Shown here: in pieces, positions 1,176 through 61,664 of the stretch | Layout of the letters: each line of letters starts with the position of its first letter | How positions within the stretch are numbered: the stretch's first letter is position 1 | From: Blepharisma japonicum | Taxonomy: Eukaryota; Ciliophora; Heterotrichea; Heterotrichida; Blepharismidae | Assembly: GCA_949751835.1 (NCBI GenBank) | Contig: CATKHK010000043.1 | Span: forward strand, 186,001 to 250,000 | Length of the DNA: 64,000 bases | Reading direction: 5' to 3' | Notes under the pieces: model-generated | Told to the model about the DNA's origin: nothing | The model's input: the letters and a program-made list of their open reading frames with translations, nothing else | The model's database searches: none | Position numbers and translations under genes: made by a program

Positions 1176-4100
1176 ATGAAATTTATTGTTCTAGCGTTCA
1201 TACCACTATGCGTTGTGAGCGATTTGGTAGCTGATTTCATTCTCTCATCTTCAAATCTCAAAAATGGAAATTCTTTTGTCAGCAAAGATGGGACTCTTTC
1301 AATCTATTCGCCACAAAGTATTTATAGCGATGATCCTTCGGTTCCGGAACCTACAGCAATTGGTACATACTTTCACGGCTCAACTTTTTTATATAGAGAA
1401 AATTTCCCATCAGTCTTCAGCGTGACTCAAAACTTCTCAATCAAACTTTGGATTTATTTTATTGACAATATAGAATCCTCTGGAACTGTTTTTGCTTTGA
1501 GTTCACCAACAAATTCAGAAACTCCTTACCCACTTTCCATATATCAGCAGCAGGGAAGCTTCTATCTTTCAACTACTTTAATTGAAACTTCTTCATTTCC
1601 TATTGATTCAGGTATTTTTTATATAGGCATATGGAAACTCATAATCCTTACTTCAAGTGAAGGGACGGATAATAATGGAGAAATTAATGTTTATGCTCCT
1701 GATGGCACTGAAAACTACTCTACTCTTCATGCTACTGCTCCATATCAATTCCCTCTTAACACTACTCAATTGAACTTTGGATTTAGAAAATCATCATTTA
1801 TAGGGTTTCTATTTGAAGCTGCAATTTACAACTCAGTGCTTCTGCCTGCCGATTTTCCACAGTTTTATACAAGCAGCTGTGAAGGCTGTTCATTTTGTGA
1901 TCCTTCTTATAACTGTTTGGATATCAGCAAGCTATATCCAGCTGAGAAAGGAGAATACCCAGGATTTGAGCTTTGTGATAAGTCTTGCAATTATTATTGT
2001 AAAAGCAGCAAGGCAGAGGATTGCTTTTGTGACAATGGACTGATAGATATAAAAAGCTCAATTAATTATGATGAAGAAGAAAATAAATGTTGCAGTAATC
2101 AACTGTCTTTAAGCCAAAACATCAATAAAGAGGAAACTATTGAATGCTGTGGGGAATTAATTGAAGTAATAGGATCTTTTGAATCTGAAAGCACTTTTAG
2201 TGAGCCTGGGCTTATTATGGTAAATCAAGTAATAACTGCTGATGATGAAGAAGACTGTGAAGATATATATAGCCTTATTACAATTAAACATGTAATTTCT
2301 GAAGACTCTGAAGAAGAATGTGAAGGATGCTTCAAATTGATAACTATCACTCACACTATCAACCAAGATGAAGAAGATGAGGACTGCTTAAATTGTGAAG
2401 ATACCATCTCCGTTAATGCAGCTATCTCTGAGTCTGAAGAAGATTGCCAAACTTGTGACTCTTTGTTTACACTTACTAATTCTATTATTGATGATTCTTC
2501 AGACTGCCTCTGCGAAGATTTTATAACCCTTTCCCAAGTTATCATGGAAGAAAGTGACTGCGAATTTTGTGAATTTTTATCTCTTTCAGGAAAAATATTT
2601 GAAGAAAAATGTGAATCTTGTTCAAGCTTATTTACGATTTCTCAAGTTATTTCAGAAGAAATAGAAGAAAACTGTTTGTGTAATAATTGAATAATCGCAA
2701 GTTGAATGCTATTAGAAGATGATGATTGTGATTATTGCTCTGATCATATAGCAGTAACTGGATGATTGGATGAAGATAATACAAATTGTTCTTGTGATTT
2801 TGACTTTATATCAATTAATGGGACAGTTGATGACTCTGAATTATGTTGCGATTCCCAAAGATTTGAGATAGATGGTATTATCTTTGATGATAGCGAAGAG
2901 GGATGCTGCTCCAATGAACTTGTGGAAATTAAAGGGATTTTAGAGACAGAAGAAAAATGCTGTCAAAATGATTTAATAGAAATTCATGGAAATCTTCTTG
3001 AAGATAGGGAGTGCTGCAGTAGTAATTTATTCACAATTTCAGAAATGATACTTGATGATGGGGAGTGTTGTAGCAGCAATTTATTCACAATTTCAGAAAT
3101 GATACTTGAAGAAGACGAAGAACAATGCTGCTCAACAGGTTTAATTGCCATTGGAGGAGATATTTATGATAATAATGAGTGCTGCTCTGATGAGCTCATT
3201 ACAATTGCTGGAATGATTTATGATGAAATGGACTGTTGCTCTAATGATTTTATCGAAGTAAATGGAATTGTTTTTAGTGATGAAGAGTGTTGCTCTAATG
3301 ATTTTATCGAAGTAAATGGAACAGTTTTTAGTGATGAAGAGTGCTGCACAAGTGATTTAATTGCCCTTGAAGGAGTTATTTATAATGATGATGAAAAATG
3401 CTGTCTGAGTGATTTAATAACAATCGCAGGGATGATTTTTGAAGAAGTGGAGTGCTGTGATAGTGACTTAATTAAAGTAAAAGCTATAATTATTGATGAA
3501 AGTGACTGCTGCACTCCTGACTTGTTTACAATCGAAGGGAAAATATTTGATGAGGAAGACGATGATCAAATTTCTTGCTGCTCAGATTCATTGGTGCTAA
3601 TTGGTGGATATATCTATGAAGAAGAAGAAGAAGACTGCTGCACTCAAGATATGATAACTTTGACTGGAACTGTATATGATGAATGCTGCAGCAGCGAATT
3701 GATTACTATCAGCAGCATAATTTATGATGAAGATGATGATAGCAATTGTTGTATTGACGATTTCATTAAATTAAGCAGTTTTATAACTGAGTATGAGTGT
3801 TGTAATAGTGATTTGATTGCCCTTAGTGCAATAATTGCAGAAGAGGAGTTTTGCTGCGAAAATGATTTAATAAAAATAAGCAGCCCTATTTTTGATGAAG
3901 AATCATGCTGTGAAAATAATTTTGTTACATTGCAAGGCAAGCTTTATGACTCTGAAGACTGCTGTGATGATTCTTATATATCTCTTCATGGAGCCATTTA
4001 TAATGATGAAGAAACATGCTGCGAAAGCCAAAACTTTATTGCTTTAAATGCAACAATTCATGATGAAGAAATATGCTGTGATAGCCAAAACTTTATTACT

Positions 4101-7100
4101 TTAAATGCAGCAATTTATGACGAAGAAGTATGCTGTGAAAGTCAAGACTTTATTACTTTAAATGCAGCAATTTCTGATGAAGAAGTATGCTGTGATAGTC
4201 AAAACTTTATTACTTTAAATGCAGCAATTTATGATGAAGATGAATGCTCAGACTGTGGCTCTCATATTCAGATAAACTCTACACTCTATGATGATGAAGA
4301 CTGCGATTCTTGCCCAGACCGCATCACAATTAGCTGGAAAATTGACAATGAGTGCTCATCATGCTCAGAAAACCAAACAATTACTCTTAAAGCTTTTCTA
4401 TATGATGAAGAAGACTGTAATAGTTGTTCATCATCTATAACTATAAATGCTACCCTCGATTCTGAGTGCCAATCATGCTCAGAAAACCAAACAATTACTC
4501 TTAAAGCTGTTCTATATGATGAAGAAGACTGTAATAGTTGTTCATCATCTATAACTATAAATGCTACCCTCGATTCTGAGTGCCCATCATGTTCAGAAAA
4601 CCAAACAATTACTCTTAAAGGTTTTCTATATGATGAAGAAGACTGCGACAGTTGTTCGTCATCTATAACAATAAATGCTACCCTCGATTCTGAGTGTCCA
4701 TCATGTTCAGAAAACCAAACAATTACTCTTAAAGCTTTTCTATACGATGACGAAGATTGCGACAGTTGTTCATCTTCTATAACTATAAATGCTACCCTTG
4801 ATTCTGAGTGCTCATCATGCTCAGACCTTATTAGCTTCAAATTTAACATTACATATGATGAAGATGACTGTGTTCCTTCCTGTAATTCTGGAGAATTTTA
4901 TAATGGAACTCAATGTGAGGCCTGTGGAAAACTTTGTGCAAGCTGCATAAGTAAAGAAAACTGCACAGCCTGTGAAGATCCAATAAATATGGAAATTAAT
5001 AGTGAAAATCTTGGTAATTGTTCATGCAAAGGTGGAACTTTCTATAATGGAAAAACTTGTGAATCATGCGGATCTTTATGTGAAACTTGTGCAGAGGATG
5101 GTAGCTGTTTGAAATGTAACGGGCTGCATTTGATTTTGAAAGATGGGGAATGTGAATGCGAAAGCGGATATTATATGGCAAATGGAGTATGCACTCAATG
5201 TGGACATTTTTGTAAAGAATGTTCCAGCAATGGCACCTGCACAACTTGTAATGATAAAAATACCATGAAATTCAATATCTTAAATCCAGAAGAATGCGAA
5301 TGTATATCTGGGACTTATAATAATGGAGAAACATGCAATAGCTGCGGCTCATTTTGTGCTGAATGCAAAGACAGCAGCACATGTCTTTCTTGCACAATTC
5401 CATCAAAAATGAAAATCAGCACTTCAAGCCCAGGAACCTGTGAGTGCTCTTCCGGCTTCTTCAAGTCCTCTAATTCTTGTTCTGCTTGCACAAATTTATG
5501 CTCTACTTGTAGCTCTGAAACTTCCTGCACAACTTGTGTTGCCAATACAAACCCAATTTCCAGCAATTCTTGTACCTGCAAAGATGGCTACTTTAAGTCT
5601 TCTAATTCCTGTAACTCATGCCCTTCATTATGCACAACTTGCAGTAATAGCACAATTTGTTCCTCTTGTGTAGCCAATGCAGCTTTAAATGTAAATTCCA
5701 TATGTGCTTGTAACTCAGGCTTTTCAATTTCAGAAGATTCCTCATCTTGTTTAGCCCAGTGCAATTATCTATGCACATCTTGTGATAAAAATGATGGGAA
5801 AAAATGCTCAGCTTGTGTCACAAATGCAGAATTGTCAGGAAATACTTGCTCTTGCACTGAAAACTCAGTTTATGATTCTGGGACAAAGACTTGTGTATGT
5901 AATAGTGGGTATTCTCTTGTGAGCAGTAAATGCATTACTTGCAAAAATTATTATTCATCATCTGATGTGGTTTCGATTAGCTTTACATCGACTTATACAG
6001 CTATTTTGGTGGAGTTTAAGTATTATTTAGATACAAGTGTTGACTCTTCTTGCTCTAAAACTGTAGCATCTACGAGTTTATCAAAGCTAGGCACCAATCC
6101 AAGTTGCTCTTGGACTGATAATAAATATTTGAAAATTACTTTAGGCGCAGATTATTCAATTAGGAGTGAAATGCTTTATTTGGATGGAACAAATATACTT
6201 AGAAAATATGGGTCATGCTCAGTGAATTATCAAGAACTTAGCGGAACTGTCCAACTGAGCTCAACAGCTTCAATTTCTTCCATTATTTCAGGACAAACAA
6301 GTCTATCCCTTACATGTGGCACTGATCCTTTAGATTACTCAGGTGAAAAATCATATGGATCTGCAGGGCTTGGGCTAACTTATTCATGGAGCTCAACAAT
6401 TTCTCCTCAGATCTCTACTCTTTCCACTTATATTTCTTCTCAATCTTCCTCAAAAATTAGCATTTCCCGAAGCTATTTCAGTACTTCAGTTACAACAACT
6501 TTAACTATTTCTCTAACTGTGACTAATAAATTTGGAAATAAAAGCACTTCTTCAATTACTACTGTAATTGAGCCTTCCGAAGTACTTACAGTTACTTTTG
6601 ATCAAGGAAATTCTATCTCTATTTTAACTTCTGATAGTAAAACTATTAAAGCTTCAGTAAAATCGCAGTGTAGCTCCTCTTCTGAGTCAATCAGTTGGGA
6701 ATGGGACTCAATAGCAGTTGATGGGTCTCCTACATATGATTCTGCAACTATTTTGTCAAAGTCTAAATCCCCCAATAAGCTTGAAATCCCATCAAATTCT
6801 TTGCCAGCTGGAGGGACTTACAAATTTAGAGCTATTGCAACTCAAACTGTTTCAGGAGTAACATATACAGGCAACTCAACTATAACGATAACGACTAGCC
6901 ATTCACCTTTAGTTATTTCACTATCAAGGAGTAGTGGCAGTATTTCTCCAAGCCAAGATTTTGTAGTAAGCGGGGCTGATTCTTATGATCCTGATGATAC
7001 TACTGGGTCGCTTAATTATACATGAAGCTGCGTCACTACTGATTCAAATTCTACATGTGTTGCAGCTGATAATAGTGCACTAGTTAGTAATGAGATTGGG

Positions 7101-9776
7101 TCTAGTTTAACTATTCCATCAAGTAAACTAGTGAAAGGATCTAGCTATGATATTACTCTTATAATTAGTAAAGATACAAGATCTTCAAGTTCTACTATTA
7201 CGATTTCTGTGCTCAGTGTCAATACTGATGCCTCAATATCTATTGCACTCAGCTCCCAAAAAGTGAACCCTCAAGCGGTGGTAAGTCTAAAAGCTGCTGT
7301 TGAAGTTTCATCAGAAGTTTCTATCACATGGAGTGAAATTAGTGGGTCATCTGTATCAATCTCTCCAAACAACCTTCCAACAGTTTCATTCAAAGTTGGA
7401 ACCTTATCTGAAGGTCAATCCTATACATTTAAGCTATCTGTGCTAGACACCTCCATAAATTTATCACTAGCAATTGAGATGCCTGTTACTACTAATATTG
7501 GAGGAAGCTGTACAGGATCAGTATCAATTTCCCCAGACTCAGGTACAGCAATAACCACCTCTTTTTCTATTTCAATCAGCGGCTGTGTCGACAAAGATGA
7601 AGAAGACTACCCAATCCTTTATAAATACACTGATACTTGGAAATCAAAAACCTACAAGCTTTCATCAACTACAGAGTCAAATAGTGTGAATGCTAATTTG
7701 TACCCAGGCGATAATAGTGTTGTAGTCTATGTGTGTGACCAATTAAATACTTGTTCTTCTTATTCTAAATCAATTACAGTCGAAAACTACTCAGCAAGAT
7801 TTCTGCAGACTACTTCACTGCTAAGCTTGTATCAACAAGCTATAATTGACCCTGACCAAATCCCTTCAGCAATTACACTATTCTGCAGCTCTGCTACAAT
7901 TGATTCAACTCTTTTCAGTACAATGTGGTCTGACTTGCAGTCATTTGTAAGTGAAAATACAGTTAGCTCTGATTTATTGAACGATGCAATGTCATCTATT
8001 CTTTCCTTGACTGAACAAACTTCTTTAATGTCGTCTGACATGTTTGACGTATTTATTGACTACCTTGAAAACTATGAAACTACAAATGATATTATGCCAA
8101 CTTCTGATACTATAAAATATGCTGTTGATATCACAAATAATTACTTGACCTTCGGAGAATCTGCTAGTTTTAATGGTAGCTCAATAGAATCTTATATTAT
8201 CAAAACCAATAGTTTCATAGAGCTGTTCGTCAAAAAGTATACATCAAATGACTTAGTAACCCAGCAATCTCTTGACTCTGATGTAAATACAGACACAATC
8301 AGCCTTTATAAACTTCGAGATTTCCCAACCACATTTTCAAATAGCTCCTTAAATTTTTCTGATCACCGATCTATTAGTTTTCCAAGTTCACTCCCATTTA
8401 AAGACACAGACATCACAAATCTACGTGCAAATTATTATACATATTCAGACGACTACTCAGATGTTGCTGAAATTAGTTTCGGACTAAGTGGGAATTATTC
8501 AAATTACACTCTTAAAGTTTCAGATGAATACGATTATGACTATAAAGCTTCTGGGAATCCTATTTCTATTGAGCTACCATTTTATAAAAATGTGTCTGTT
8601 GCATGGAGGTGTCTTTATTATAACCAAACCACTTCAGCTTGGCAGTCAGATTCAACCTGCAAAATAAAAGAAGTGAAAGCTTCGTCAGTTGTAGTAGAAA
8701 CCACTCATTTATCTATGTATAAACTTGGAGACACCCCGAATGTTCCACCTAATCCATTTATTCCTACATCTTATAACTGTGAAGATAATAATTATCCAGC
8801 GATTTATATTTTATCAGTGGTTGTTTTTATTGGTATTATTTTGATACCTATAGTAGTTATTGCAGATAGAGCTCAAAATACTCCAGGAGCAGTTAAAAGA
8901 GAGCTTAGACAAGCATCAAGCTTAACTCAAAGAAATTTAATAAACGAAACTTGCATGACTGTAATAGTCCCTCCAAATTCTCCTAAAGACTTCATCAATG
9001 AGCCAAGTTTTGGATCTCCAAGCCAGCTGATGCAGCCTGATGAAGAAGAAGTAAAAGAAGATAGCCCGCCCAGCAGTGATGATGATGTAGTCAGCATGGG
9101 AGACATTGGAGTCGATGAGCCACAATTAACAGAAAAATCCCATGCAAGCGAAGTCGAGCCAACATCATTCCCTGAAGAAATTGAATGTGCAGCTAAAATA
9201 GAAAAAAGCCAAAATCTCAAAATAAAAGCACTTATTATGATTGAAGGACATTTAACATTTGGATTAGTTTTCTATAGATCAGAATTCAGCAGAGTTTTTA
9301 GATTGCTAACATTGATAGCGATAATTGTATTTGAGCTACTATTAGAAGGGGTATTCCTTTATGGATTTGAAACTATTGATGAAGGCTCAAGCAAATCATC
9401 AACAAAATCAATTTTTGAGAATTATGAGCCTAATTATTTTGGATACACCATATTGTCAATAGCAATATCAATGCTAATTGAAATTTATTTGATTATTGCA
9501 TTTAGCATAGATAAAAAGAAAGCTCCTTATATGACAGCTTCTGGGATTTTGATTGGGGCTGTTGTTTTATTCGGCTCAATTATTGGAACTGTTTGGTTAA
9601 GTTTGGAATTCTGCCATGATTGGAATGGATATTGGGCAGCAAGCTTTTTGTTTGGAATTTTAGTTGAGATTTTTGTTATGCAGACAATTTATATGTTATT
9701 TAGATATCTATTTCTAGAAATTTTGCCAGAGAGCAAAAAGGAAATGAACTTAACTAAATCCTTTACTTTAGCTTAA
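1176..9776 (+). CDS. Giant polycystin-1-like surface protein: LamG-like, ~49 Cys-pair repeats, furin/EGF-like repeats, REJ-like region, GPS, 5 TM
   Basis: One continuous frame of 2866 codons is obtained when four TGA codons (2688, 2709, 2763 and 7023) are read as Trp; the last gives NYTWSC, typical of PKD/REJ beta-sandwiches. Order seen: signal peptide (1-20); LamG/concanavalin-like region (about 20-230); a small Cys-rich stretch; about 49 tandem repeats of ~19 residues (305-1231), each a CC or CxxC, an alternating beta-like hydrophobic strand and an acidic D/E run; furin/growth-factor-receptor-like Cys repeats (1232-1590); Ser/Thr-rich REJ/PKD-like region (1600-2210); a GPS-like element with Cys, Trp and the cleavage-type tripeptide HLS at about residue 2511; one TM (about 2540-2565), a cytosolic acidic Ser-rich loop, then four TMs before a short tail. 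FYRSEFSRVFRL before TM2 resembles polycystin-1. No PLAT domain or ion-channel pore is seen. Probably a plasma- or ciliary-membrane adhesion or sensing receptor; the role is inferred from domain order. Confidence 0.85.
2088..4868 (+). repeat. Protein-coding tandem repeat array, ~49 Cys-pair repeats
   Basis: By eye there are about 49 units of 17-23 codons inside the large gene. A representative unit reads CCSNDFIEVNGTVFSDEE. Each begins with a Cys pair (CxxC in the first dozen, vicinal CC in units ~14-38, CxxC again in the last ten), then one polar-hydrophobic alternating strand often ending in a small residue, then a second short hydrophobic strand and a D/E run. The period and alternation suggest a beta-solenoid or stacked hairpins with acidic, possibly calcium-binding, turns; that is inference. 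Confidence 0.9.
4353..4808 (+). repeat. Four in-phase 114-bp DNA repeats
   Basis: Units start at 4353, 4467, 4581 and 4695 and are nearly identical at the DNA level, differing by a few substitutions each. Each encodes a 38-residue double unit (a 21- and a 17-residue Cys repeat). The high nucleotide identity compared with the older flanking repeats marks this as the most recent expansion in the array. Confidence 0.93.
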
Positions 9777-12004: not shown

Positions 12005-13321
12005 TTATTCGCTTGTTTCTCTATTGATTTCTCCAGTATTGTCAAATTCCATCGTCTTCAGTAAATACTCATCAGTATTTTTACTAATATTTTTTTTAAC
12101 TAATGACGCAATATCACATGAATAGGCAAAAATTGGTACAAGTATTAGCACAAGTGCCAAAATAATGCCAGCGCTGTGTTGGTATGTGATAAAATCTACC
12201 AAAACTCCAGAAACAACTGCTCCTAGAATTTCTCCGATAGACATCGAAAAATTCGAAATTGAAGAGAGGGTGTCGCTTAAAGACAAATTATCTGCGTAGC
12301 CATATTTTGATACTGCAACTTCTACCATATAAGAATAGGAAGGGACTAAATAAAATTTACCAAAGGCTAAAGCGCACATTATCCCTAATAAAGGTATACT
12401 AATAATAACTATTTGTACATTATCTGGGAATATAATTGAAGGCCCCATCATACTCATAGCAAACCCAATCCCAGATAATCCAATGAGCATGGTAATCCTT
12501 TTATCTACTCTTGTAAATTTTGAAAAAATTATGCTTCCAACGCCATTACAAAAATAGAAAGCTGTGAAAAGAAAGCCAATATTTTCTTGACTTATGCCGT
12601 ATCCGTCTAGGTGAACTGAAATAGAAGCAGACATAAAATACATAGAAGCATAGACAAATAGTTGGATGTCTGCTGCAAGAAATATTTGCTAAATAAATCT
12701 TACAGGCTTTTTTCATAATTTGAAAAGCTCTAATTTTTCGTTTTCTTCTATGGCACTATGCAGATTACCCAAGGAAAAATAAGCTAAAGGGATATAAATT
12801 ATAAAAACAGCACCAGAAACAATGTAGGCTACTGAAACCCCCCCGATTAAATACAAAACTGTTCCTAATAAAGGGCCAATTACGCTGCCTATTCCTGAGT
12901 AAGCGCTTATTTCACCAATTACTTCTTGCGCTTGATCTTTGAATTCAGAGGTAGCAATAGCTAGGCCAGATCCCCATAGAAAACCAACACCTACTCCATA
13001 AAAGAATCTAGATAAAAAGCTCAACGCAATAAATTCGTCCCTATTGCAGTCTGCAGCAAAAGGGAGAATAATCATTGAGATGCCTTGAAGAAGAGAAGAA
13101 AATAGAAAAATTAATTTTCTCCCTACTTTATGTTGAATCTTATTGTTAAGCCAAATTGAAGGAGCGCCTATCATTGGAACAATGCTAAAAATAAGTCCGA
13201 TTATTCATAAGCTTACATGATTATCTTGAGCTTGTAAGGGATAGAACGGTTGAAAAACCCCATAGGCAACTGAGGATAGGAAAAAACTGATGCCAAGTGA
13301 TATTTTCTTTATATTCAACAT
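12005..13321 (-). CDS. MFS transporter (SLC18-like), copy 2, with one 15-nt intron
   Basis: A 433-residue paralogue of the previous transporter, in the same orientation. It starts MLNIKKISLGISFFLSS and has YGVFQPFYPLQAQ in the same place as copy 1. Exon 1 is 13321-12704 and exon 2 12688-12005. TGA is Trp at SLWIIG and FKLWKK. The motif A region is NNKIQHKVGRK; GEISAYSGIGSVIGPLLGT matches the antiporter-type motif. The two copies differ at many positions, so the duplication is old, yet the intron sits at the same codon boundary (KP before QIFL). Likely a 12-TM secondary transporter of unknown substrate. Confidence 0.88.
12689..12703 (-). other. 15-nt spliceosomal intron
   Basis: On the minus strand the sequence is GTAAGATTTATTTAG. 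Removal joins KKP to QIFLAA, the same junction as in the neighbouring paralogue, so the intron pre-dates the duplication. Confidence 0.93.
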
Positions 13322-14135
13322 TTTATATTATTCCCATATTGAGAAAGATTTAGGCATATTTAATAAACTTTCAACAATAAATTAAATTTTATCATTAAGA
13401 TTTTAATTTTAAAGACTACATATTAAAATCGAGAAAACAACATTGAGAACAACTAAATCAACCCTCTGGAATAATAATTTACTAAAATCTATAAAGACTC
13501 TTTTATCTTATAAATATTAAAATATCAAATTTTTTGAAAAACGATCACCCCGAAAGAGGAGAATTTGCTTTTTGTGCTAGTATACGCATCTAGTTTCTTA
13601 TAGGTAGCTATAATTCTATTGAAATAATTTTGATTTTCTTAAGAAAAACTTAAATTCATTTGTTCGACTTTTAATCAATCGGATTTAGTGAATGTTTACA
13701 TTTAATGCTTAAAGCTAATTTTAAAAGCTTATATTACGAAAACATTTGAGATAATTTTAAAATATTTAAAGAATTCTTAAAAAGTTGAAAATCTTTACAC
13801 TTCTTCTAATGATTTTAAAAATTGAATGCTCAATTTTCTAATAATCTTATTCCATCTTTTAATTCTAAATCAGTGAAACAAGTAAATTTCTGAATTAATT
13901 GTATGAAGGTATGCTTACAAATTAAATTCTAAATATTCTTAAAATTATCCTTACTAATATTAATTTCCATTAAAGAATTCTATTTCCTTTTAATGAATTA
14001 ACTTATAAAAGCTGTGCTGGTTTCTCATTCTTAAAATTTACTGAATTTTAGCAAATTCTTTTTATTCTGCCCTGCTTTTTTTTTAGACAGACTAAATAAA
14101 AATATTATAAGGGTAACATATTGTTTAATACCAGG
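13322..14135. other. Intergenic, divergent gene pair
   Basis: This 814-nt AT-rich stretch separates the second transporter from the histidine kinase. It should carry both promoters. I see no open frame with coding character, no RNA gene and no clear repeat. Confidence 0.5.
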
Positions 14136-16265
14136 ATGGTAGAATCAGTAGATGAATGATGGCAAGAAGAATTTCTGGAAAATATAAATAACTTCAAATT
14201 AGCATGTGTCTTTATTTCAGTGGTGGTGAATATATTGAAATTCGGACTTATGCTATGATACGGTAAAGGTTTTATTATAACACCGTCAAGTATGGCCTTA
14301 TCAGGGATTACACTGGCGTTTATCGTAGCAATTTATCATATGAAGCTGAAATATAATCGTATTACTGTTTTCTCAGCAACTCTTTTCCTTGAGATATTGA
14401 CTTTTTTGATGTTCTATTCAGCTCATTATTTGGAACCAGAGTCCTATAATATTTTGCTGATGGAGTCAACATTTGCAACAGTTTTTTTCGAGTGCACTAT
14501 TTTTAGATCTTTATGAATAAACGTTTTTATTCTAATGAAGCATATTATGCTCTGGCATGCATGGGAAATGATTGTTGAAGGACAAGGAATTACAGGGTCA
14601 GCTCAGATTATTTCTATAGTTACTATTGTCACTATGTTTGTTTCGAGGGAATTTTTGACAAGAAAGATAAGTTATGGTAGATATTCTTATAGAAAGAAAT
14701 TGGAAGTTACAGAAAAAAGACTGCAGATAATACTTCAAGCTTTTCCAGATGGACTCATTATATTAAATTCTAAACTAATTCCTGAGCTTGTGAATGAAAA
14801 AATGCTACAGTTTTTAGGATGCACTTTTGAAAATATAATGGAAACCTTATCAAAGCTTGAATATGCCAAAGGCAAAAAACTGCAAAATCTAAACACAGCC
14901 TCTCACAATTTAATGGAAGACCTAAAATCTTACGATTTACAAGAAAGTGGGGAGCTTAATTTAGGAATAATTGAGCTAAAAAGTTATATTTTGCAGTGAA
15001 AAGTCAAAAAAATTAAATTTGATGACAGTCATATTATTTTGATTAGTGCTGCTAATTCAGAACAGCTTATAAAACTTGAGCAAACTCAAGCTGAAAACCG
15101 ATGCAAATCATATATGCTTAGAACAATTTCACATGAACTAAGAACACCAATTTCAGCAATTATCACTTTTGCTGACCAAGCTAAAGAAGATATAGTGAAG
15201 CCAGAGACCTTAGAAAAATTATCACACATTCGCACTTCTGGGAATATTTTATTAAACTTTATTAACGATATTTTAGATTACATGCAAATTACACAAGGAA
15301 TGTTTGCATTAAACAAAACAACATTTAATATTAGGGACAAAATTAATGAGTGCTGTAATCAATTTGGGTTTATGGCTAAAAGAAAAGGTATCGATTTTAC
15401 CGTAAGGATTGATCCCTCAGTTCCAGCTGATATTTTTACAGATCCTGAACGATTGCACCAAGTCTTGATGAATTTTTTGAGCAATGCAATTAAATTTACA
15501 AGCAAAGGATCGATAGAGCTTAGCGCTATTTTAGCAGAAGATGATAGATTAAAATTCTGTATCAGCGACACAGGCATTGGGATACCTGAACAAAGATATA
15601 AACAGCTTTTTGAATTGTTTCAAAATCATAATTCTGAAGAAATTGCTTCTCATGGGTGTGGGCTAGGGTTGCATTTGTCTAGTTTGATTATAAAAGTCCT
15701 TGGTGGGGCTAAAATCTTTGTGACGTCTTCTCTTGGAAAAGGAACTGTATTTTCATTCAAAATTGATATTTTCCCTGAGAATTCAAAACAATTGATTAAT
15801 TTAGATTTTATGGAAGATCTCTTAGACCCAATTAATCCTGTAAAAGTTCTGGCCAAAAATTCTACTCATAATTATCCAAAAGTTCTTATAGTAGATGACA
15901 ATGATTTTAACAGAGAAGTCTTAGCAAGCTTACTTCAGAGGAATAAAATTCAATACATAGAAGCAATTAATGGGAAAAAAGCAGTAAAAGCAGTTTTAAA
16001 GCAGGACAAAAAGAAGATTCCAATTAAATTGGTCATTATGGATTGCAGCATGCCAGTCATGGATGGCTGAGAAGCGACTAAAGCAATCAAAAGATTGTGG
16101 GATGCTGGAAAATTAAGTCACATGCCCGCTATTGTAGGGCATACAGCTTACAACTCAGATAAAGATGTCACAATGTGCTATGTGTCAGGAATGGTTTCAT
16201 TCATCGCAAAACCAGCAAATCAAGATATAATATTGAAAACTGTATCGCAATATGTGCAATTTTAA
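14136..16265 (+). CDS. Membrane-bound hybrid histidine kinase (TM-PAS-HisKA-HATPase-receiver)
   Basis: A 709-residue protein starting MVESVDEWWQEE; the ATG at 14136 is the first in frame. Five TGA codons read as Trp, including the one in MDGWEATKAI that is normally hydrophobic or Trp in receivers. About five or six TM helices fill residues 18-180; a PAS-like segment (AFPDGLIILNSKLIPE) follows at about 205-240. The phosphoacceptor H-box is SHELRTP with His333. The ATPase domain shows LMNFLSNAIKFT (N box), SDTGIGIP (G1) and GCGLGLHLS (G2). The C-terminal receiver has acidic VDD near 586, phospho-acceptor Asp636 in VIMDCSMPVMDG, HTAY and the conserved Lys692. All catalytic residues are present, so it should autophosphorylate and pass phosphate to its own receiver. 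Membrane-bound hybrid kinases are known from ciliates; the signal is unknown. Confidence 0.93.
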
Positions 16266-19495: not shown

Positions 19496-19927
19496 ATGGC
19501 CAACATGATAATGAGGCATGCGACTATTTCGCCAGTGAAATCAAGAGTAAATGATTACACCGACCTCCTAAGCTTAAATTATATTTCTTCGAATCCGATC
19601 AGAAAGGGACTCGAATATTCGAGTGAAAACAATTTCCAGTACTTCTCAAGAGCTGGAAATTCTTCAAAACACTTTCATAAGAAATCTTTCGATTTTACGA
19701 GCAATAGCTCAGTTTCATGTGATCTACAGAATAAAGTAATTTTTATTTAGATTTCAAGTCTTTTTGATTCCCATAAGCAGATAATGAATGAGCTATTAAA
19801 TGATAAATCATCTTCTAATCAGCTTGATGATATTCAAGAAAAGTTGAAAGAATTGAGCTTACAAAATTCCAAATTGGTATTGGAAAATATTGCATTGAAA
19901 AAGAAATTAGCTAATCATCATTATTAA
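19496..19927 (+). CDS. Small coiled-coil protein with a 15-nt intron
   Basis: Exon 1 (19496-19735) encodes 80 residues starting MANMIMRHATISPVKSRV, and exon 2 (19751-19927) adds 58 residues, giving 138 in all. The second exon is a leucine-heptad coiled coil (IQEKLKELSLQNSKLVLENI). The N-terminal half is Ser/Asn-rich. Without the intron the protein would end right after CDLQNK. No family recognised; size and layout fit a structural or scaffold protein. Confidence 0.8.
19736..19750 (+). other. 15-nt spliceosomal intron
   Basis: The sequence is GTAATTTTTATTTAG, matching the two transporter introns at GTAA and at TTTATTTAG. Removal joins CDLQNK to ISSLFDSH and opens 58 further codons of coiled coil. 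Confidence 0.93.
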
Positions 19928-26432: not shown

Positions 26433-29087
26433 TTAAAAGTCTTCGTCCCAGTTATTAGGAGCATTTTTGGGTTTTCTTGATTTTCCTTGAGGCATTTCTT
26501 CGCTGGCTTCTTCTAAAGATATGATATCATTGATGCTTCGTTTATTTTTAAGGGCTGCCTGGATTTCTCTAGAAAGGTCAGAAACTCTAGGTCTATAAGG
26601 TGATTCTAGTTGTCGTGACAAAAGTTGGTCTCAATTGAAGCCGTTGAGCCATGGGTGAGCTTTTAAGTTGTCAATACTTCCTCCAGTTCTCATAGCAGGA
26701 TTTTTCGACAGAAGTTGCTCTATAAAAGGTTTTGATGGCATCCTAGGGTCTACAAATGCAGGATAAATCAGTCGTCTTTCAAGGACTTTTTCATAGATCG
26801 CGAAGGGGTCTTCTTCCTCTTCTCCAAAAGGAACGCCGCCACACATAAATTCATAAAGCATGATCCCTACACTTCAATAGTCGACTGCGACACTGTAGCC
26901 TTTTCCTACAATAACTTCTGGAGCCATATAATGAGGGGTCCCAACAATAGTATAGGTGCGTCCATTTACAATTTTAGCAGTCCCAAAGTCAATGAGTTTG
27001 GCGTATCCTTCATCGTCGACCATTACATTTTCTGGCTTGAGGTCACGATAAATGATATCACGCTCATGAAGATGCTCTAAAATGACAACTAAACTTGCTG
27101 AGTAAAATTTAGCATCTTTATCAGTGACAAGGTTCAGCTGCCGAAGCACATCAAATAGATCCATTCCTCTTACAAATTCAGTTAAGAAATAGACACGCCG
27201 AGGGTCTTTAAAAGTTCTGACTAGTTTTAGTATCAAAGTATGATCCAGTTGTAGCAAAATTTTTCTTTCCAGGACCAAGTTTTCCTGGATTTCAAATCTT
27301 TCAATTTTCTGCCTGTCAACTGTTTTAAGGGCGTATAAGTGGCCTTTTTCTCTATGAACTGCCAAAAATACATTCCCAAACATGCCTTTTCCAAGCACTT
27401 TGACGATAGCTAAATCCCCTAGCGTAATATTATCATCTTGCAGGTCTATTCTTTTTTGCAAATGCTGTCGAATATTCTCATCTATAATGCTCAAAAAATC
27501 TTGCTGGTGCAATACCCAGCAAGAAACAGGGCCATTTGCTACAATTGTGGCGCTTCTGAAATGGTTGAAAAGGACGCTTCTTTCTCCAAAATAGTCGTGC
27601 TTTGTGATTGTTCTTACATTGATTCCATCTTTGATAACGTCAACTTTGCCGGATTTTATGATAAAGAAGCAGTCGCCTGGGTTATTTTGTTGGACGATTA
27701 CTTCTTGATTGGAAAATTCACGGATTTGTAAAGCACGGATTAAGGCTTGGAATCTGTCAGAGCTGAGGCCTCGGAGCAGTTGGACTCTTTTTAGTACTGA
27801 GTGGGCTTCATTATTTGTGGTGACTTGGCTAAAAACACCTCCGATGCATTCTTCGAACTCTTCACGGGTGCATTCAGCGACTACTGCTTCCCCATCAGCG
27901 ACAATTTCTTCACTGTAGTTTCCAGAAGGAGTACTAGTGATATCTTGATCGCCGATACATTGGAAAACGTCAGCACATTCACGCCCATTTCTACTTGTTA
28001 ATTTTCCTTTCATTACCATCCATAAGTGAATACCTTTAGGAGATCCTTGCCTGACCACTACTTGGCCATTAGAATATGTGATTACTCTTAGTACATTTAT
28101 AACTCTATCAGTCTGGTCTTTTGTAAGCTTACTCAGAGTGCTTGAGGCATCAATTGCCATCCTCTTCGTATTCTGATATATGATATGCTGTAATTGGTTA
28201 CCCAATGCCTTTGTCAATCTTTCTCTGCCAATCGCCACACATTTTACATCATCAATTGCTGATATACTTGCAGTCCTCACACAATTATAAAGTAATGCTT
28301 GTTCCCCAAAGAAGTCACCTCTAAACATCTGTCTTATTTCTCTTCCTTCTTGTGTGCAGCTTACGCTTCCTTCTTTCAGGACATAAAACAGATCTCCAGG
28401 GTCTCCTTCACTCACAATCCTTTCTCCAGGCCTAAATTTCAATGTAGACAAAGACCCTACCAGTGCATCTCTTTGTGCAGGCGTTAAAATTCTGAAAAGT
28501 GGGACACTCTCGATAAACTGTTTATTTTCTTGATAATTCTGCGCATTAACAGTCTCCACAGCATGCCTGAATGTTTTTCTGTCAAGTCCCCAGAGCGTGG
28601 TCCTTTCTGAAGTCTGAATTGTCGCTGATCTTGGAGAGTCGTGCAAAAGTGCCAGTTCACCGAATGAATCTCCAGCACCTAGGGCTTTTACTTTTTTTCC
28701 ATTGACATAGATATCTAATTTGCCAGAAGCCACAATAAAAAAGGTGTTTCCTGGCTGGTCTTGTTCAAAAACTACTTCAAGTGGGCCTAAGGTATAATGC
28801 TTCATATGATCAATTAAAAGTCCTCGATTTTCGTCAGCTAAACTTGTGAAGATAAAATGTTTGTTAAGTGCTGTATTAATTAAATCCTTATCACGTGAGG
28901 TTTTAGGCTTGTCTACTACTAAGGCGTTCGGGGCATCTAACGATACTGAAGAAACTTTTCGGGTATCCACAACTGGCTTGTTTTTCTTCACTGGATTACG
29001 TGGCATAGAAGAACGGACTGGGATTTTTTTTTCTTCTTCACCAGAAATACTTTTTCGAGGCTGCAAGCGAGATGGTCTTTTGTCCAT
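26433..29087 (-). CDS. PKG: cGMP-dependent protein kinase with four cyclic-nucleotide domains
   Basis: An 884-residue protein. After a basic N-terminus there are four tandem cyclic-nucleotide-binding domains: ~78-190 (FGELALLHDSPRSATI), ~191-310 (FGEQALLYNCVRTASI), ~320-425 (degenerate, no phosphate-binding cassette Arg) and ~432-545 (FGERSVLFNHFRSATI). The kinase spans ~556-815: GKGMFGNV, ALK, YRDLKPEN, DFGTAK, GTPHYMAPE and DYWSVG, where the invariant Trp is a TGA (26874-26876). The gatekeeper is Thr (YFLTEFV). Four CNB domains with a dead third one and a small gatekeeper are the layout of alveolate PKGs, known from apicomplexans, rather than the two-domain animal form. All catalytic residues are present. 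Two TGA codons encode Trp. Confidence 0.95.
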
Positions 29088-54722: not shown

Positions 54723-57700
54723 AATTAAATTATAAAAAATAATCATTCGTTTTATAATGCTAAACAATTAATTATTTTTTGTTAATGATATCAAGCACAC
54801 GCCTTTCTTTGATTTTATTCACATCAACTCCTGTTTTTTTCTTCATGAAGTTCGTTTGCAGATCTCTATATTTTGGGACTAAAGCTGCTTTTTCAGGAGG
54901 GTTTTGAGGTTCTTTAGCAGCAGGCTTTATTGGCAGCTTATTACTTTGATGATTACTTTTTGGCATGATAATCCTAGATTGAACTTCGCTTCAGCTGCTA
55001 CACTCATAAAACATATTTCTTTCTCTAAACGATTCGATTAACTTTTCCCAAAGCTCGTTTCTTTGCAAGCACTCTGCCTTCCCTATAATCCATAGCCCGA
55101 ATTTCGCTCTTGTAATAGCGACATTCATTCTTCTATAATCTGACAAGAATCCAACTGAATTTCCTGATCTTACAGCTGAAAACAGAATTAAATCTTTTTC
55201 TCGGCCTTGAAACCCATCTACAGTATTAACTTCAATATCAGATTTTCAATCATTTTCATATTTGTCAAATAATAGCTCTCTTATGAGTTTAGCTTGTTTT
55301 TTATATGGTGTGATAACCCCTATATTTAATTTCATTGTGTGTATACAGGAAAAATGATTATAAATTGCAATGATAAATTTTGCTTCATTTATATTTTCTA
55401 TACTGGTATCTTCATTAGTTCTGGACTCAAAAGAGGTTTTTAGGTTAAAGAAAATGACTTCTTGAGCAGGCATCCAGTAGGGTTTTTCACGATTGTCTAA
55501 TTCTTCTGCGACTTGAAGTCTGCCTTCATAGAAATAAAGTGATGGGAAGCAACAAATTTCTTTGGTCATTCTATATTGGATTTCAAGCATAATTACTTCT
55601 GCACCACCTTGCATAAGCCTTTCAAAAAGAGATCGGTTGTAGAGAACATTTTGAGAATTTGGGCAAAAAGTTGTGGCTGGAAGTTGCCGAGGATCTCCTA
55701 CCAATACAGCATGCTTTGCTTTGTATTGGAGAGGAATCAGAGTGCTTAATTCTATACTTTGGCAAGCTTCATCTATCAGCACGTAATCAAAATCATGAGG
55801 AATAGCTTGAATTTCTTTAGATCCAGCCCCACTAAGTGTGCAAAATATTAAATCAGCTTTACTTAAAATTTCTAGTTCTATCAGTTTTCTTCTATCTTTA
55901 TACTTATCTCTGTTTTGTTTAATTCTATACATGCTACTTTTTAGCATTTTTTGTTCCTTAGTAATTTTTTCTATTTCCTTTTTGTTTCCTTTTTTTTCAA
56001 GTCATTTAACTCTTTTTTCAGCATTGTTAATTTTTTTTTTAATTTCGTTTAGCTCTTCTTCTTGATCAATTAACCCTTCTATTTGAAATCTTCCAGAGAC
56101 TAAATTGCCTAGCATGATGTTTTGCACAGATTTTGGTGGTTCTCTGACATCATTAGGGTTTTTCTGTCGAAGCTCAAGATGCTGAGAATTAAAATGCCCA
56201 GTGCGAACTAATAAAAGGTCGTTTCTTTTATTTCCTGTTTCGTTGAATAATCCTTGCTCTATTGCTCTACAAGCCAGTTCATCAATGGCTGCATTGCTAG
56301 GTGCGCATATTAAGAGACGTGGTTTTTCACCTGAGTTAGTTTTTGATAGTAAAAATGATGACATGATGCCTAATAATGTTTGAGTTTTTCCAGTCCCTGG
56401 AGGTCCTTGCAAGAGTGTAATACCAGTGGTTTTACTGCAGATTTTTTGAATAGCGTCATATTGAGATGCATTATAAAATCTTTCAATATTTCTAAAATAG
56501 TTTGCTGGGGCACAAGGAATGCTTGTCAAGCTCCTTTTTGTAGGATTCATTATAAATTCATTAAGTTCCAAAAATTCGGCAAGCTTTATCATCCTAAACT
56601 CTCTTATTAATGTTGATAGAGAATCAACATAAATCGCATTGAAAGGTTTTGAGAATTCAATGTCTTCCAGCTTTTTTAGTTTTGCTTTTAGCTTCCAGCT
56701 GCTATTGGAGTTTTCTCGTTCGCAGACACCAAAAAAATATGTAGGCTCCAGATTAAGAAGTTCATCAAAAGATTTTGGGATAGCTTTGCTTTCTTCTAAA
56801 GAGAAAATCAGCACCAAATCATCATGCTTAAGAGAATGGTAAAATGAAAATTCTCCTCCTCTTTTTTCTTCTCCTGGAACTATAAATCCATAGTCTCCTT
56901 TTTCACATTGAGGGATAAGTTCTAAAATATGGCATGAAGAAAAATTTGCCTGACTTAAAGCACAAAAAATAAGGGATTTAAGCTCATCACAAAAAGCAGG
57001 GAAAAATGATTCTTTATAAAATTTCCCATTTTTAAATTCTAATGGAATTTGTGTGTTAGCTAAAAAGTGACCTTCTAAGCTATGCAGATCAAGACTAAGC
57101 ACAAAGCTATAAAATTCTTCAATAGAAAATCGGTTGCAATGCCTTATATTTTTTTCACTTACTTCTAACTGAGACTGGATTCATTCTTCTGACACACTTT
57201 CAGGAGCATACTTAGTTTCCTCTTGAAATTCTTTTTCTTGATATCGCTTATTTCTGGGATCTTCTTTTTGCTTTTTTTCTCTTTCCTTTTTGTCTGTTTC
57301 TTGTCTCATAAAATCATTGAGATTCAACATCCCAACTTTTTGCTTTTTAATAATTTTATCGTTTTCTTCTATTTCTTTTCTTTCTCTTTTGGTTGGGATT
57401 TCTGGTTTCTGGAGTGTATTTTGTTTCCACGCTAATAGCTTGTTAAGTGCACATTCTTCAGATGTTTTCTTAGCATATGTATTTCAAAATGGATATTGAG
57501 GTTTTTTAATTCCTATATCAATATGGGGACTAGCTCTAGATAAAATAAGCGATTTGTGTTCAGCTTGAGATCCAGGCTCAATATATTTTTTTGGATATGG
57601 AGCTGGAGGAGGTTCATATCAATCATCAAGTGAAACATCGCCCTCATTATCATTATGTAATTCCTTGAGCCTCTCTGAAATTGAGTTAAGAAAAGAAGTA

Positions 57701-57968
57701 GATTTTATAGTGATTTTAGGGCTTGAAGTAATAGGCTTTTCAGTTGGCTTTAAGTATGATTTAGTTGCAACTTTGGGATTTGGACTCTCAGTAAGATCAA
57801 CAAATTTTTTTGTGAGAGGATCTGATCTTAAATCTTCTGTTAAGTCTACAACACAAGAATTTTTCATTTTTGAAGATTATGATGCAATAGCTAAATGGGG
57901 GAATTTAAAAAATTTATTTAATAAATTAATTTAATAGTAAGTTTAATTTAATAGTAAAATTTAACTTA
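54111..57968. repeat. Tandem segmental duplication, unit A
   Basis: About 3.86 kb containing the last 600 nt of the PGAP1-like gene and the whole Sen1-type helicase gene A. The same sequence order recurs from 57969. Identity is high over the helicase core and lower over the N-terminal region and spacers. The limits are judged by eye from matching flanks (ATTAATGG at both left ends). Confidence 0.85.
54772..57867 (-). CDS. SEN1: Sen1/senataxin-like SF1B helicase, copy A
   Basis: A 1031-residue protein, one uninterrupted frame with six TGA as Trp. An N-terminal region (~1-260) is polar, followed by a coiled stretch and a long N-terminal domain. The helicase core has Walker A QGPPGTGKTQT (about residue 488), Walker B YVLIDEACQS (about 700), motif III VLVGDPRQLPAT, motif V VDGFQGREKDLI and motif VI RRMNVAITRAKFG (about 920), the Upf1/Sen1 family pattern. 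Such helicases unwind RNA:DNA hybrids and help end transcription. Residues 6-12 (VVDLTED) and 22-28 (FVDLTES) look like SUMO-interacting motifs. A basic C-terminal tail of ~60 residues is present here but cut off in copy B. Convergent with PGAP1, stops 49 nt apart. Confidence 0.92.
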
Positions 57969-58799: not shown

Positions 58800-61664
58800 T
58801 TAATGATTACTTTTTGGCATAACAATCCTAGATTGCACTTCGCTTCAGCTGTTACACTCATAAAACATATTTCTTTCTCTAAACGATTCGATTAACTTTC
58901 CCCAAAGCTCGTTTCTTTGCAAACATTCTGCTTTCCCTATAATCCATAGCCCGAATTTCGCTCTTGTAATAGCGACATTCATTCTTCTATAATCTGACAA
59001 GAATCCAACTGAATTTCCTGATCTTACAGCTGAAAACAGTATTAAATCTTTTTCTCGGCCTTGAAACCCATCTACAGTATTAACTTCGATGTCAAATTTC
59101 CAGTAACGCCCATATATATCAAATAATAGCTCTCTTATAAGTTTAGCTTGTTTTTTATATGGAGTAATAATCCCTATATTTAATTTCATTCTGTGCATAC
59201 AGGAAAAATGATTGTAAATTTCGACAATAAATTTTGCTTCATTTATATTTTCTATACTGGTATCTTCATTAGTTCTGGACTCAAAAGAGGTTTTTAAGTC
59301 AAAGAAAATGACTTCTTGAGCAGGCATCCAGTAGGGTTTTTCACGATTGTCTAATTCTTCTGCGACTTGAAGTCTGCCTTCGTAGAAATAAAGTGATGGA
59401 AAACAGCAAATTTCTTTGGTCATTCTGTATTGGATTTCAAGCATAATTACTTCTGCACCACCTTGCATAAGCCTTTCAAAAAGAGATCGGTTGTAGAGAA
59501 CATTTTGAGAATTTGGGCAAAAAGTTGTGGCTGGAAGTTGCCGAGGATCTCCTACCAATACAGCATGCTTTGCTTTGTATTGGAGAGGAATCAGAGTGCT
59601 TAACTCTATACTTTGGCAAGCTTCATCTATCAACACATAGTCAAAATCATGAGGAATAGCTTGAATTTCTTTAGATCCAGCCCCACTAAGTGTGCAAAAT
59701 ATTATATCAGCTTTACTTAAAATCTCCATCTCTTTTGCTTTTCTTCTATCTCTATACATGTCTCTGTTATGCTTAATTCAAAGCATATTACTTGTTAATT
59801 CTTTTTTATCTGAAGTACTTTTTTCGATTTGATTTTTGCTTCCATTTTTTTCTAATCATTTAACGCTTCTTTCAGCATTATTTAATTTTTTTTTAATCTC
59901 ATTTAGCTCTTCTTCTTGATCAATTAATCCTTCGATTTTGAACCTTCCAGAGACTAAATTACCTAGCATAATATTTTGTACTGATATTGGCGGCTCTCTA
60001 AGATTATTATGGTTTTTCTGTCGAAGCTCAAGATGTTGAGAATTAAAATGCCCAGTGCGGACTAATGAAAGGTCGTTTCTTTTATTTCCTGCTTCGTTGA
60101 ATAATCCTTGCTCTATAGCTCTACGAGCCAGTTCATCAATGGCTGCATTGCTAGGTGCGCATACTAGGAGACGTGGTTTTTCACCTGAGTTAGTTTTCGA
60201 TAGTAAAAATGATGACATGATGCCTAATAATGTTTGAGTTTTTCCAGTTCCTGGCGGTCCTTGCAAGAGCGTAATACCAGTGGTTTTACTGCAGATTTTT
60301 TGAATAGCGTCACATTGAGATGCATTATAAATTCTTTTAATGCTTCTAAAATAATTTGATGGAGCACGAGGAATGCTTGTCAAGCTTTTTTTGGTAGGAT
60401 TCATTATAAATTCACTAAGTTCCAAAAATTCTGCAAGCTTTATCATCCTAAACTCTCTTATTAATGTTGATAGAGAATCAACATAAATTACATTGAAAGG
60501 CTTTGAGAATTCAATTCCTTCTAATTTTTCTAATTTTGCTTTTATCATCCAGCTGCTATTAAAATTTTCTCGTTCACAGACACCAAAAAAATATATAGGC
60601 TCCAGATTGAGAAGCTCAGCAAAAGAGGCTGGAATGATTTTGCTTTCTTCTAAAGAGAAAACTAGCACTAAATCATCATGCCTAAGAGAATTGTAAAATG
60701 AAAATTCTCCTTCTCTTTTTTCTTCTCCTGGAACTATAAACCAATAGTCTCCTTCCTCATATTGAGGGATAAGTTCTAATATAGAGCATGAAGAAAAATT
60801 CACATAGCCTAAAGCACAGGAAATAAGGGATTTAAGCTCGTCACAAAAGGCTGGGAAAAATGATTCTTTATAAAATTTCCCATTTTTAAATTCCAGTGGA
60901 ATCTGTGTGTTAGCTAAAAAGTGGCCTTCTAAGCTATGTATATCAAGACTAAGCACAAAGCTATAAAATTCTTCAATAGAAAATCGATTGTAAATCCTTA
61001 TATTTTTTTCATTTGCTTCTAATTGAGATTGAATTTTATCTTTTGTCACACTTCCAGACACATGCTTAGTTTCCTCTTGAAATTCTTTTTCTTGATATCC
61101 ATTATTTCTGGGTTCTTCATTTTTTTCTCTTTTCTTTTTGTACACTTCTTGCTCCATAAAATCATTAAAATTTAGCATCCAAAGTTTTTGCTTTTTCATC
61201 ATTTTATCATTTTCTTCTATTTCTTTTCTTTCTCTTTTGGCTGGGATTTCCAGTTTCTGGAGTGTATTTTGTTTCCATCGTAATAGTCTGTTATGCACAC
61301 ATTCTCTAAATGTTTTCCTATAATATTTATTTCAAAATAGATATTGTGCTTTTTTAATTCCTACATCAATAGGGGGACCCATCCTAGAAAAAATAAGCGA
61401 TTTGTCCTCAGCTTGAGATACAGGCTTTGGATATGAAGCTGGAAGAGGCTCATGTCAATCATCAAGTGGCATGTCGCCCTCATTATTATGCAATTTTTTG
61501 ATCCTCTCTGAAATTGAATTAAGAAAAGAAGCAGATTCTATATTGGTTTTAGGACTTGAAGTAATATGATTTTCAATTGGCTTTAAGTATGATTTATTTC
61601 CAATTTTGGGATTTGGATCAGATTTTAAATCATCTGTTAAGTCTACAACACGAGAATTTTTCAT
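58800..61664 (-). CDS. SEN1: Sen1/senataxin-like SF1B helicase, copy B (C-terminally truncated)
   Basis: A 954-residue paralogue of copy A with all helicase motifs intact (QGPPGTGKTQT, VLIDEACQS, GDPRQLPAT, VDGFQGREKDL, RRMNVAITRAK) and five TGA as Trp. The N-terminus has one SIM-like motif (VVDLTDD) where copy A has two, owing to a short deletion, and the linker between the two helicase halves differs strongly. A CAA to TAA change after SNH removes the basic tail. The frame is otherwise clean over nearly 3 kb, so it is probably still functional or very young. Confidence 0.9.

Follow-up and report, generated by a model that had tools for sequence, protein, structure and literature searches.

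The cysteine-pair array and its gene

The DNA analysed here, referred to as the window, is a stretch of 64,000 nucleotides from the ciliate Blepharisma japonicum (contig CATKHK010000043.1; G000:C43:186001-250000 in the organism's own genome, which was searched as 45.2 Mb in 224 contigs), and our subject is a gene near its start whose product contains a long array of short repeats, each built around a pair of cysteines. The gene is a single open frame of 2866 codons on the forward strand (1176..9776, about 8.6 kb) when its four TGA codons are read as tryptophan; a genome search with the whole protein placed it at G000:C43:187176-195773. Three of the TGA codons fall inside the array, which is therefore open only under this reading, and when TGA is taken as a stop, the gene is broken within the array into frames 1176-2690 and 2766-7025. 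In Blepharisma stoltei, UGA encodes tryptophan and introns are predominantly 15 and 16 bp long (PMC9942806).

The array spans residues 305-1231 (927 residues; window 2088-4868, forward strand). Its cysteine pairs split it into 48 units that start with cysteine, one of which is 37 residues long and contains two strands, which gives 49 strands. The original prediction, made from the sequence alone, had described about 49 units of about 19 residues, each combining a cysteine pair with a strand of alternating hydrophobic residues and an acidic stretch, and this description holds: the units are 16-23 residues long (median 19) and follow this order, one Cys-less unit standing beside the 48 that start with cysteine. 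The longest run of cysteine pairs at a spacing of 14-23 residues comprises 45 pairs, compared to a maximum of 6 in 2000 residue shuffles. Autocorrelation peaks were found at lags 18, 19 and 38 for both cysteine and acidic residues, and at 19, 38 and 18 for hydrophobic ones.

The array begins (2088..2318) with two CC units, one unit devoid of cysteine (2b) and one with a single cysteine, C361. These are followed by nine CxxC/CxC units (2319..2843), three of them CxC (units 7, 10 and 12), by 25 consecutive CC units (2844..4244; residues 557-1023), and by eleven CxxC units (4245..4868), which read C-SSSITINATLDSE-C and among which a two-unit module of 38 residues is repeated about four times. The predicted placement of CC pairs in the middle and CxxC pairs at both ends was thus found for the middle and the C-terminal end, but not for the N-terminal edge, where units 1-2 are CC. 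The cysteine pair is intact in 47 of 49 units, and the total number of cysteines in the array is odd (95). It contains 232 aspartates and glutamates as against 23 lysines and arginines, which corresponds to a net charge of -209, and 14 N-glycosylation sequons.

In the 25 CC units the residues found most often are C-C-x-x-D-[LF]-I-x-[IL]-x-G-x-I-[YF], followed by the acidic run, and loops carry their x-G step close to the midpoint (mean offset -0.26, standard deviation 0.79, n=46). Units differ in length mainly in the acidic run, some of them also ahead of the strand. In the CC units all 50 cysteines are kept while their codons vary (TGC 19 and TGT 6 at the first position; 14 and 11 at the second), and the proportion of nonsynonymous differences (pN) is 0.30 in the strand columns 7, 9, 11 and 13, compared to 0.61 in columns 8, 10 and 12. 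Conservation of the strand columns, together with invariant cysteines encoded by varying codons, therefore indicates selection acting on the protein pattern. Near-identical neighbours were found among units 17/18, 21/22 and 35-38, and as 38-residue pairs in units 41-48. Within the CC block adjacent units are only slightly more similar than distant ones, and in the C-terminal CxxC block lag 2 is dominant; the two-unit period of the latter may reflect a recent duplication.

Upstream of the array, the protein starts with a hydrophobic segment that is probably a signal peptide (1176..1250; residues 4-22, Kyte-Doolittle value 2.32; hydropathy only), followed by a LamG-like region (1413..1850; residues 80-225). 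The predicted LamG-like tip received partial support, as Laminin_G_3 matched the N-terminus with E 7.2e-05, but at 22.1-23.4 bits it stayed under the curated cut-off of 27.6 bits, so that no LamG or concanavalin-like profile was accepted there. A possible in-frame intron of 15 bases, GTATTTTTTATATAG (window 1612-1626), lies in this region, the frame being open whether it is spliced or not. A cluster of nine cysteines (1878..2030; residues 235-285) may represent partial copies of the eight-cysteine module described below, and between C285 and C305 there is a strand-like loop, DNGLIDIKSSINYDEEENK (2031..2087), of the kind found in the array.

Downstream, the last array unit runs directly into a Cys-rich region with complete eight-cysteine modules (4869..5942), of which residues 1420-1483 matched EphA2 in PDB (E 2e-4). 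Further features are a REJ domain (6651..7799; residues 1826-2208; Pfam, E 7.4e-38), a C..W..C..HLS motif (8610..8726), transmembrane segment 1 (TM1; 8808..8864, residues 2545-2563) and four further hydrophobic segments (9303..9713; residues 2710-2846), the last two features being assigned by hydropathy. The HLS motif lies ahead of TM1, gave no Pfam match and resembles a GPS site; among 16 other frames, [YS]H[LF]S occurred at the same place in the 7 paralogue frames with a recognised TM1, while TM1 was unrecognised in the remaining 9. The features named so far, from the signal-peptide-like start and the LamG-like N-terminus to the REJ domain, support the view that this is a surface protein. 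Of the proposed polycystin-type base, only the REJ domain and the GPS-like motif could be recovered: residues 2559-2866 gave no Pfam match at E<=10, whether to a PLAT domain, a polycystin channel or any other family, and polycystin was absent among the eight PDB matches of the C-terminal part at E<=10. All eight were acetyltransferases (best E 0.012) and were dismissed as chance hydrophobic matches. The single NCBIfam match of the whole protein, in the REJ region, reached 27.4 of 1500 bits, far under its cut-off.

The array itself corresponds to no named domain, as had been expected: Pfam, including its furin-like profiles, and NCBIfam gave no accepted match, and comparison with PDB by profile gave none. 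Sub-threshold Pfam matches on pieces of the array (EF_assoc_2, E 0.0084; Pox_EPC_I2-L1, 0.056; Mad3_BUB1_II, 1.4) were rejected, and the single PDB match by sequence, a DnaJ zinc region (E 0.78), was dismissed as chance. Used as a query against the genome, the array protein retrieved only itself (two candidates were examined, which makes the count of relatives a lower bound), and a pattern similar to the unit matched three times in the array and once elsewhere (C179), off the longest frame of that locus. Among viral contigs, at least 120 stretches carried the CC-x16 pattern with four CC in a row, and the viral loci examined held 357 matches (overlaps and both strands counted), 197 of them with no stop in the pattern frame; among the matches printed, inspection by eye revealed Cys-rich low-complexity repeats with 0-12% acidic residues and no unit combining a strand with an acidic run. 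A stricter unit pattern was found at 16 bacterial or archaeal loci and one viral locus, none bearing an array. No description of the array appeared among the open-access titles and abstract openings listed for Blepharisma, REJ/ciliate and vicinal-disulfide topics.

An eight-cysteine module shared with paralogues

When the whole protein was used as a query, 15 other loci were found to share parts of residues ~1230-2855 at 38-47% identity (16 of 269 candidates were scored, so that at least 15 paralogue loci exist); 17 stretches from these loci and eight further regions were taken for analysis, some ectodomains being incomplete. REJ matched 54 times genome-wide (64 candidates; some matches are pieces of one gene) and in none of 14 control genomes. 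The paralogue stretches are rich in cysteine, and in some of their ectodomains a module was recognised with the consensus CC-xKGYYYDGxxC-xx-C-xxNC-xx-C-xxxxGxC-xx-C-NSEVTIDAAIIDPES-CC, from which the spacing rule CC/CxC-x(6-18)-CxxC-x(2-5)-CxxC-x(2-14)-CxxC-loop-C was drawn. Strict modules numbered 20 in frame L157 (C48; 46-49 residues), 27 in L153 (C138; 47-49) and 21 in L148 (C137; 48-57), and in L173 (C48:325401-334400), upstream of the L157 frame, 53 were counted by pattern. A looser pattern recovered five modules right behind the array in the window protein, where the spacing is present at window 5019-5702 (residues 1282-1509). The complete spacing does not occur inside the array, and since there is only one cysteine pair per 16-23 residues, the array would be a furin-like derivative rather than a standard member. 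Pfam detected REJ in L157 only, with nothing at E<=0.01 in the L153 and L148 frames; the genome-wide REJ search had matches in C138, and C137 was not among them. Pfam found no furin-like match on the paralogue modules. On the same base, L149 (C116) carries an ectodomain made of another repeat, CxxC..GYSGxxCxxC..GYLHDxxxxCL.

From its last CxxC through the strand to the following CC, the end of the module is built like an array unit, examples being C-NSEVTIDAAIIDPES-CC from C48 and C-KEDLSISGTIPIKNSS-CC from C25. The C25 protein (L174), an INTERMEDIATE, begins with a hydrophobic start and four to five units of cysteine pair and strand, after which full modules follow; the array matched it by BLAST at residues 67-222, which cover this mini-array and the beginning of the first module. 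The mini-array stretch returned only itself from the genome. At C25:116456-116968, 1.6 kb past the L174 stretch, REJ is matched in part, and the C25 gene may belong to the same family.

Loop charge is specific to the paralogue. The mean net charge of CC-closed loops is -4.27 in the array (n=26), -3.04 in L157 (n=23), -3.32 in L173 (n=53; net -248 in 2651 residues), +0.45 in C138 (n=29) and -0.17 in C25 (n=18). The loops of C137 at the place homologous to the array are strongly basic (L148, +3.69, n=26; L177, +4.33, n=12), opposite to those of the window protein.

BLASTP with composition adjustment matched the array to L157 with E 1.5e-08 (unadjusted E-values, far lower for many frames, were not used). 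The score of 47.8 bits compares to a maximum of 32.3 in 300 shuffles of the first 1300 residues with cysteines fixed, of which 217 gave any match; with 100 such shuffles each, L173 scored 48.1 against 30.0 and L174 41.6 against 31.2. A position matrix made from the array gave CxxC-to-CC loops a value of 3.7 in L157, compared to -1.2 after shuffling (n=22), of -0.7 against -2.7 in L148 (n=25) and of -0.4 against -1.4 in L153 (n=29); other loop classes mostly showed no rise, the exceptions being small sets in L149 (n=6) and L159 (n=4) together with a single loop class in L150 (n=50). A signature of the strand, derived from the array, exceeded all 1000 in-loop shuffles in each of five paralogue loop sets and in both array sets, and was full in none of the 52 GYY loops that served as controls within the same modules (0/23 and 0/29). 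As far as can be judged from such sequence comparisons, the evidence for the proposed link between array and module comes from C48 and C25, to which C138 and C137 add weaker support.

When a profile of the module was compared to PDB, the best matches were the furin-like repeats of R-spondin-1 (E 0.0027 to 0.016, six distinct sequences), the next being BCMA (E at least 0.09). In the published description these repeats form a beta-hairpin ladder in which every Fu domain has four disulfides, resembling the Cys-rich regions of EGFR (PMC3905715), and the tip of the second hairpin was assigned to residues 67-70 (PMC3861454). The alignment places the last CxxC of the module and the start of its strand on CLKCSPKLFI of R-spondin-1, a stretch which we take to open the second hairpin. 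This hairpin and its equivalent in Fu2 are closed by disulfides 56-75 and 114-125, which correspond to a bond joining the last cysteine of a module with the first cysteine of the following one, and the intervening cysteines are bonded to one another. With such connectivity, the array would lack a set of complete disulfides and would retain closed loops. A string of closed loops with CC, CxC or CxxC hinges predicts, in turn, cross-unit rather than vicinal disulfides.

Cross-unit bonding implies an odd number of cysteines ahead of the first cysteine of each module and an even number towards the C-terminus. The former count was odd in 174 of 181 modules from ten paralogue frames with a visible N-terminus, among which signal-peptide cuts were set by hand and L148/L177 and L162/L163 are near-duplicates, so that fewer than ten frames are independent; the seven even counts all come from the end of L153. 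The window protein gave an odd count only at the first 3 of 49 unit starts and at none of the six modules behind the array, a failure that we attribute to the absence of a single cysteine at residue 364. At the end of the array, the cysteine pair runs on into a module with C-x3-C spacing, and in furin-like repeats the two cysteines so spaced belong to two different disulfides. Of the two bonding schemes initially considered, vicinal and cross-unit, homology and the N-side count favour the latter, but the C-side count, given below, does not.

Proposed origin of the array and competing explanations

We consider it likely, with a probability of roughly 0.6, that the array consists of about 49 iterations of the loop that ends a furin-like module, and that it forms the stalk of a REJ/GPS-type surface receptor. 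Such an origin is suggested by the shared motif, the BLAST scores exceeding Cys-fixed controls in C48 and C25, the seamless junction between array and modules, and the mini-array of C25. Its source would be the eight-cysteine furin-like modules that occupy the ectodomains in some paralogues: after loss of the central part as far as the last CxxC, what was left, a cysteine pair, a strand-bearing loop and the next cysteine pair, would have been copied about 49 times. By analogy with the furin-like module, each loop would be closed by a disulfide linking the second cysteine of a pair with the first cysteine of the pair after it, and every CC, CxC or CxxC would act as a hinge between two closed loops, with no vicinal disulfide. 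The loops could stack into a stiff, beta-rich and strongly acidic rod which would hold the LamG-like tip off the membrane, its acidic runs being neutralised by cations. Calcium is a plausible candidate for these. If known REJ/GPS families are a guide, binding or pulling at the tip might then be passed through the REJ domain and the GPS-like site to the membrane segments. The array is thus best read as an unusual variant of the furin-like building block rather than a wholly new domain. The suggestion of a stand-alone new fold received no support, as the unit resembles the last segment of the eight-cysteine module in the paralogues and just downstream in the same protein.

Several results weigh against derivation from a furin-like module. 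For a profile this rich in cysteine, the E-values obtained with R-spondin are modest. The C-side cysteine count was odd in 8 of 10 proteins in which TM1 was found (11 were tried), although an even count is expected; these proteins share one homologous base, and the transmembrane assignment of L157 is doubtful. By composition-adjusted BLASTP, L153 reached E 0.097 and L161 0.15, with no match of L148 at E<=1, and six of eight further frames (L172, L175-L179) scored no higher than Cys-fixed controls. A hidden Markov model (HMM) of one unit failed to rank paralogues above decoys. The loops of C138, and those printed for L173, mostly contain I, L or V at mid-loop, where the array has G, A or S, and one long strand therefore fits them better than a hairpin tip. 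Finally, structure models stayed below 60 in predicted local distance difference test (pLDDT), their non-significant Foldseek matches were mostly beta-solenoids, and no R-spondin was present among the 50 matches listed per model.

The last two points lend some weight to another explanation, in which the stalk is a beta-solenoid, each unit of 18-19 residues forming one coil, with strands in register, a ladder of disulfides and calcium bound in the acidic turns. The regular strand pattern and similar length of the units would suit such a fold, as would the paralogue loops that form one long alternating strand. AlphaFold2, given non-overlapping array windows as alignment rows, returned a mean pLDDT of 56.3 for 6 units (7 rows) and 57.1 for 12 units (4 rows), other models being lower. 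In the 6-unit model each unit forms two short strands, the chain being interrupted at the x-G step in all six; the 12-unit model is beta-rich and less regular. The nearest solved folds found by Foldseek were bactofilin, left-handed beta-helices and a calcium-dependent beta-helical antifreeze protein (best E 0.069 and 0.47, none significant, among the top 50 of 231 and of 83 matches). Modelling of consecutive units, as originally proposed, hence yielded beta strands, but neither a confident model nor a significant solenoid match, and did not separate a hairpin ladder from a solenoid. These low scores, the variation of unit length between 16 and 23 residues, and the likeness to furin-like modules, which form ladders of hairpins, make the beta-solenoid doubtful in our opinion.

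It is also conceivable that disulfides are formed inside each CC, CxC or CxxC, which would then act as a rigid turn between strands. Retention of pairs in 47 of 49 units, and the loss of both cysteines together in one of them, agree with such vicinal disulfides, and the odd C-side counts fit them better than cross-unit bonding. Joint loss, however, is a single event and is compatible with both models, while the odd N-side counts in 174 of 181 modules, and the continuation of the last array pair into C-x3-C, with its two separate disulfides in furin-like repeats, speak against them, so that we regard vicinal bonding as quite unlikely. A similarly low likelihood is assigned to a more speculative reading of the furin-like origin, a switch of fold following the loss of most of the module and the iteration of the remainder, in which the leftover loops would cease to be separate hairpins and zip into a continuous, calcium-loaded beta-solenoid with a covalent disulfide ladder along its full length; rods of oppositely charged paralogues (-4.3 to +4.3) could then pair between cells.

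Convergence, that is an unrelated expansion whose likeness to the module end stems from cysteine pairs and beta-strand composition, would account for the failure of the one-unit HMM and for the non-significant BLAST values of L153 and L148, the more so as the compared segment is short. Nevertheless, the scores of L157, L173 and L174 exceed those of Cys-fixed shuffles, and the similarity occurs in the same gene family, at the same position, across a seamless junction and beside a mini-array in C25; we find such a coincidence very unlikely. A metallothionein-like region binding metal through thiols and acids, which the CC, CxC and CxxC pairs, the 232 acidic residues and the net charge of -209 might suggest, is hardly credible, because a conserved alternating hydrophobic strand is unexpected in metallothioneins, and free thiols are unlikely in an array which, considering the hydrophobic start, LamG-like flank and REJ domain, is probably extracellular.

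Related systems and meaning of the array

The closest known counterparts are the furin-like (Fu) repeats of R-spondins and the EGFR family, which share with the array C-x2-C, a strand-bearing loop and the next cysteine, and to which the paralogue modules connect it (R-spondin-1, E 0.0027). R-spondin Fu repeats form a rod of consecutive hairpins pinned by disulfides (PMC3905715). The array differs from them in having one loop per unit, predominantly CC hinges, about 49 units, extreme acidity and no furin-like Pfam match. Polycystin-1 and the receptor for egg jelly (REJ) share with the window protein the REJ domain, the GPS-like HLS ahead of TM1 and a long ectodomain with a lectin-like tip, whereas the window protein is distinguished by TM1 with four further hydrophobic segments, a C-terminal part free of Pfam matches and a stalk of cysteine-pair loops. 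Large Cys-rich membrane ectodomains with CxxC and CxC are also found in Giardia VSP and HCMp proteins, the excerpted description of which, giving 30 HCMp in Tetrahymena, makes no mention of REJ (PMC1762436). The antifreeze protein 3p4g was the top Foldseek match of the 12-unit model (E 0.47), but there is no sequence match, and the array differs in being Cys-rich. This protein is built of repeats of about 19 residues with calcium bound in the turns.

Elsewhere in the window, a hybrid histidine kinase gene with HisKA, HATPase_c and response regulator domains lies at 14121-16262 (forward strand). On the reverse strand, 26436-29087 encodes a protein kinase with four cyclic-nucleotide-binding stretches, which we presume to be similar to cGMP-dependent kinase, and 54775-57867 and 58803-61664 are adjacent helicase-like genes (AAA_11/AAA_12) of like architecture, probably tandem duplicates. 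Candidate 15-base GTA..TAG introns were noted at 12703, 12399, 12360, 11212 and 10869 on the reverse strand and at 19736 and 62994 on the forward strand; at 2 of 12 candidate 15-base sites, namely 12703 (reverse) and 19736 (forward), the frame is open only after splicing. Within the window, 15-base GTA..TAG matches are no more numerous than those of other lengths.

If the proposed origin is true, the array would illustrate a route by which a standard disulfide-rich module, stripped to one loop, gives rise to a long and uniform stalk. Full modules, a short mini-array and the array of 49 units would then coexist within one genome, so that the origin of a repeat could be tested by sequence, and protein design would gain a natural series of repeats that are charged and closed by disulfides. 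In this ciliate, REJ receptors form a large family in which very different ectodomains are carried on a shared base.

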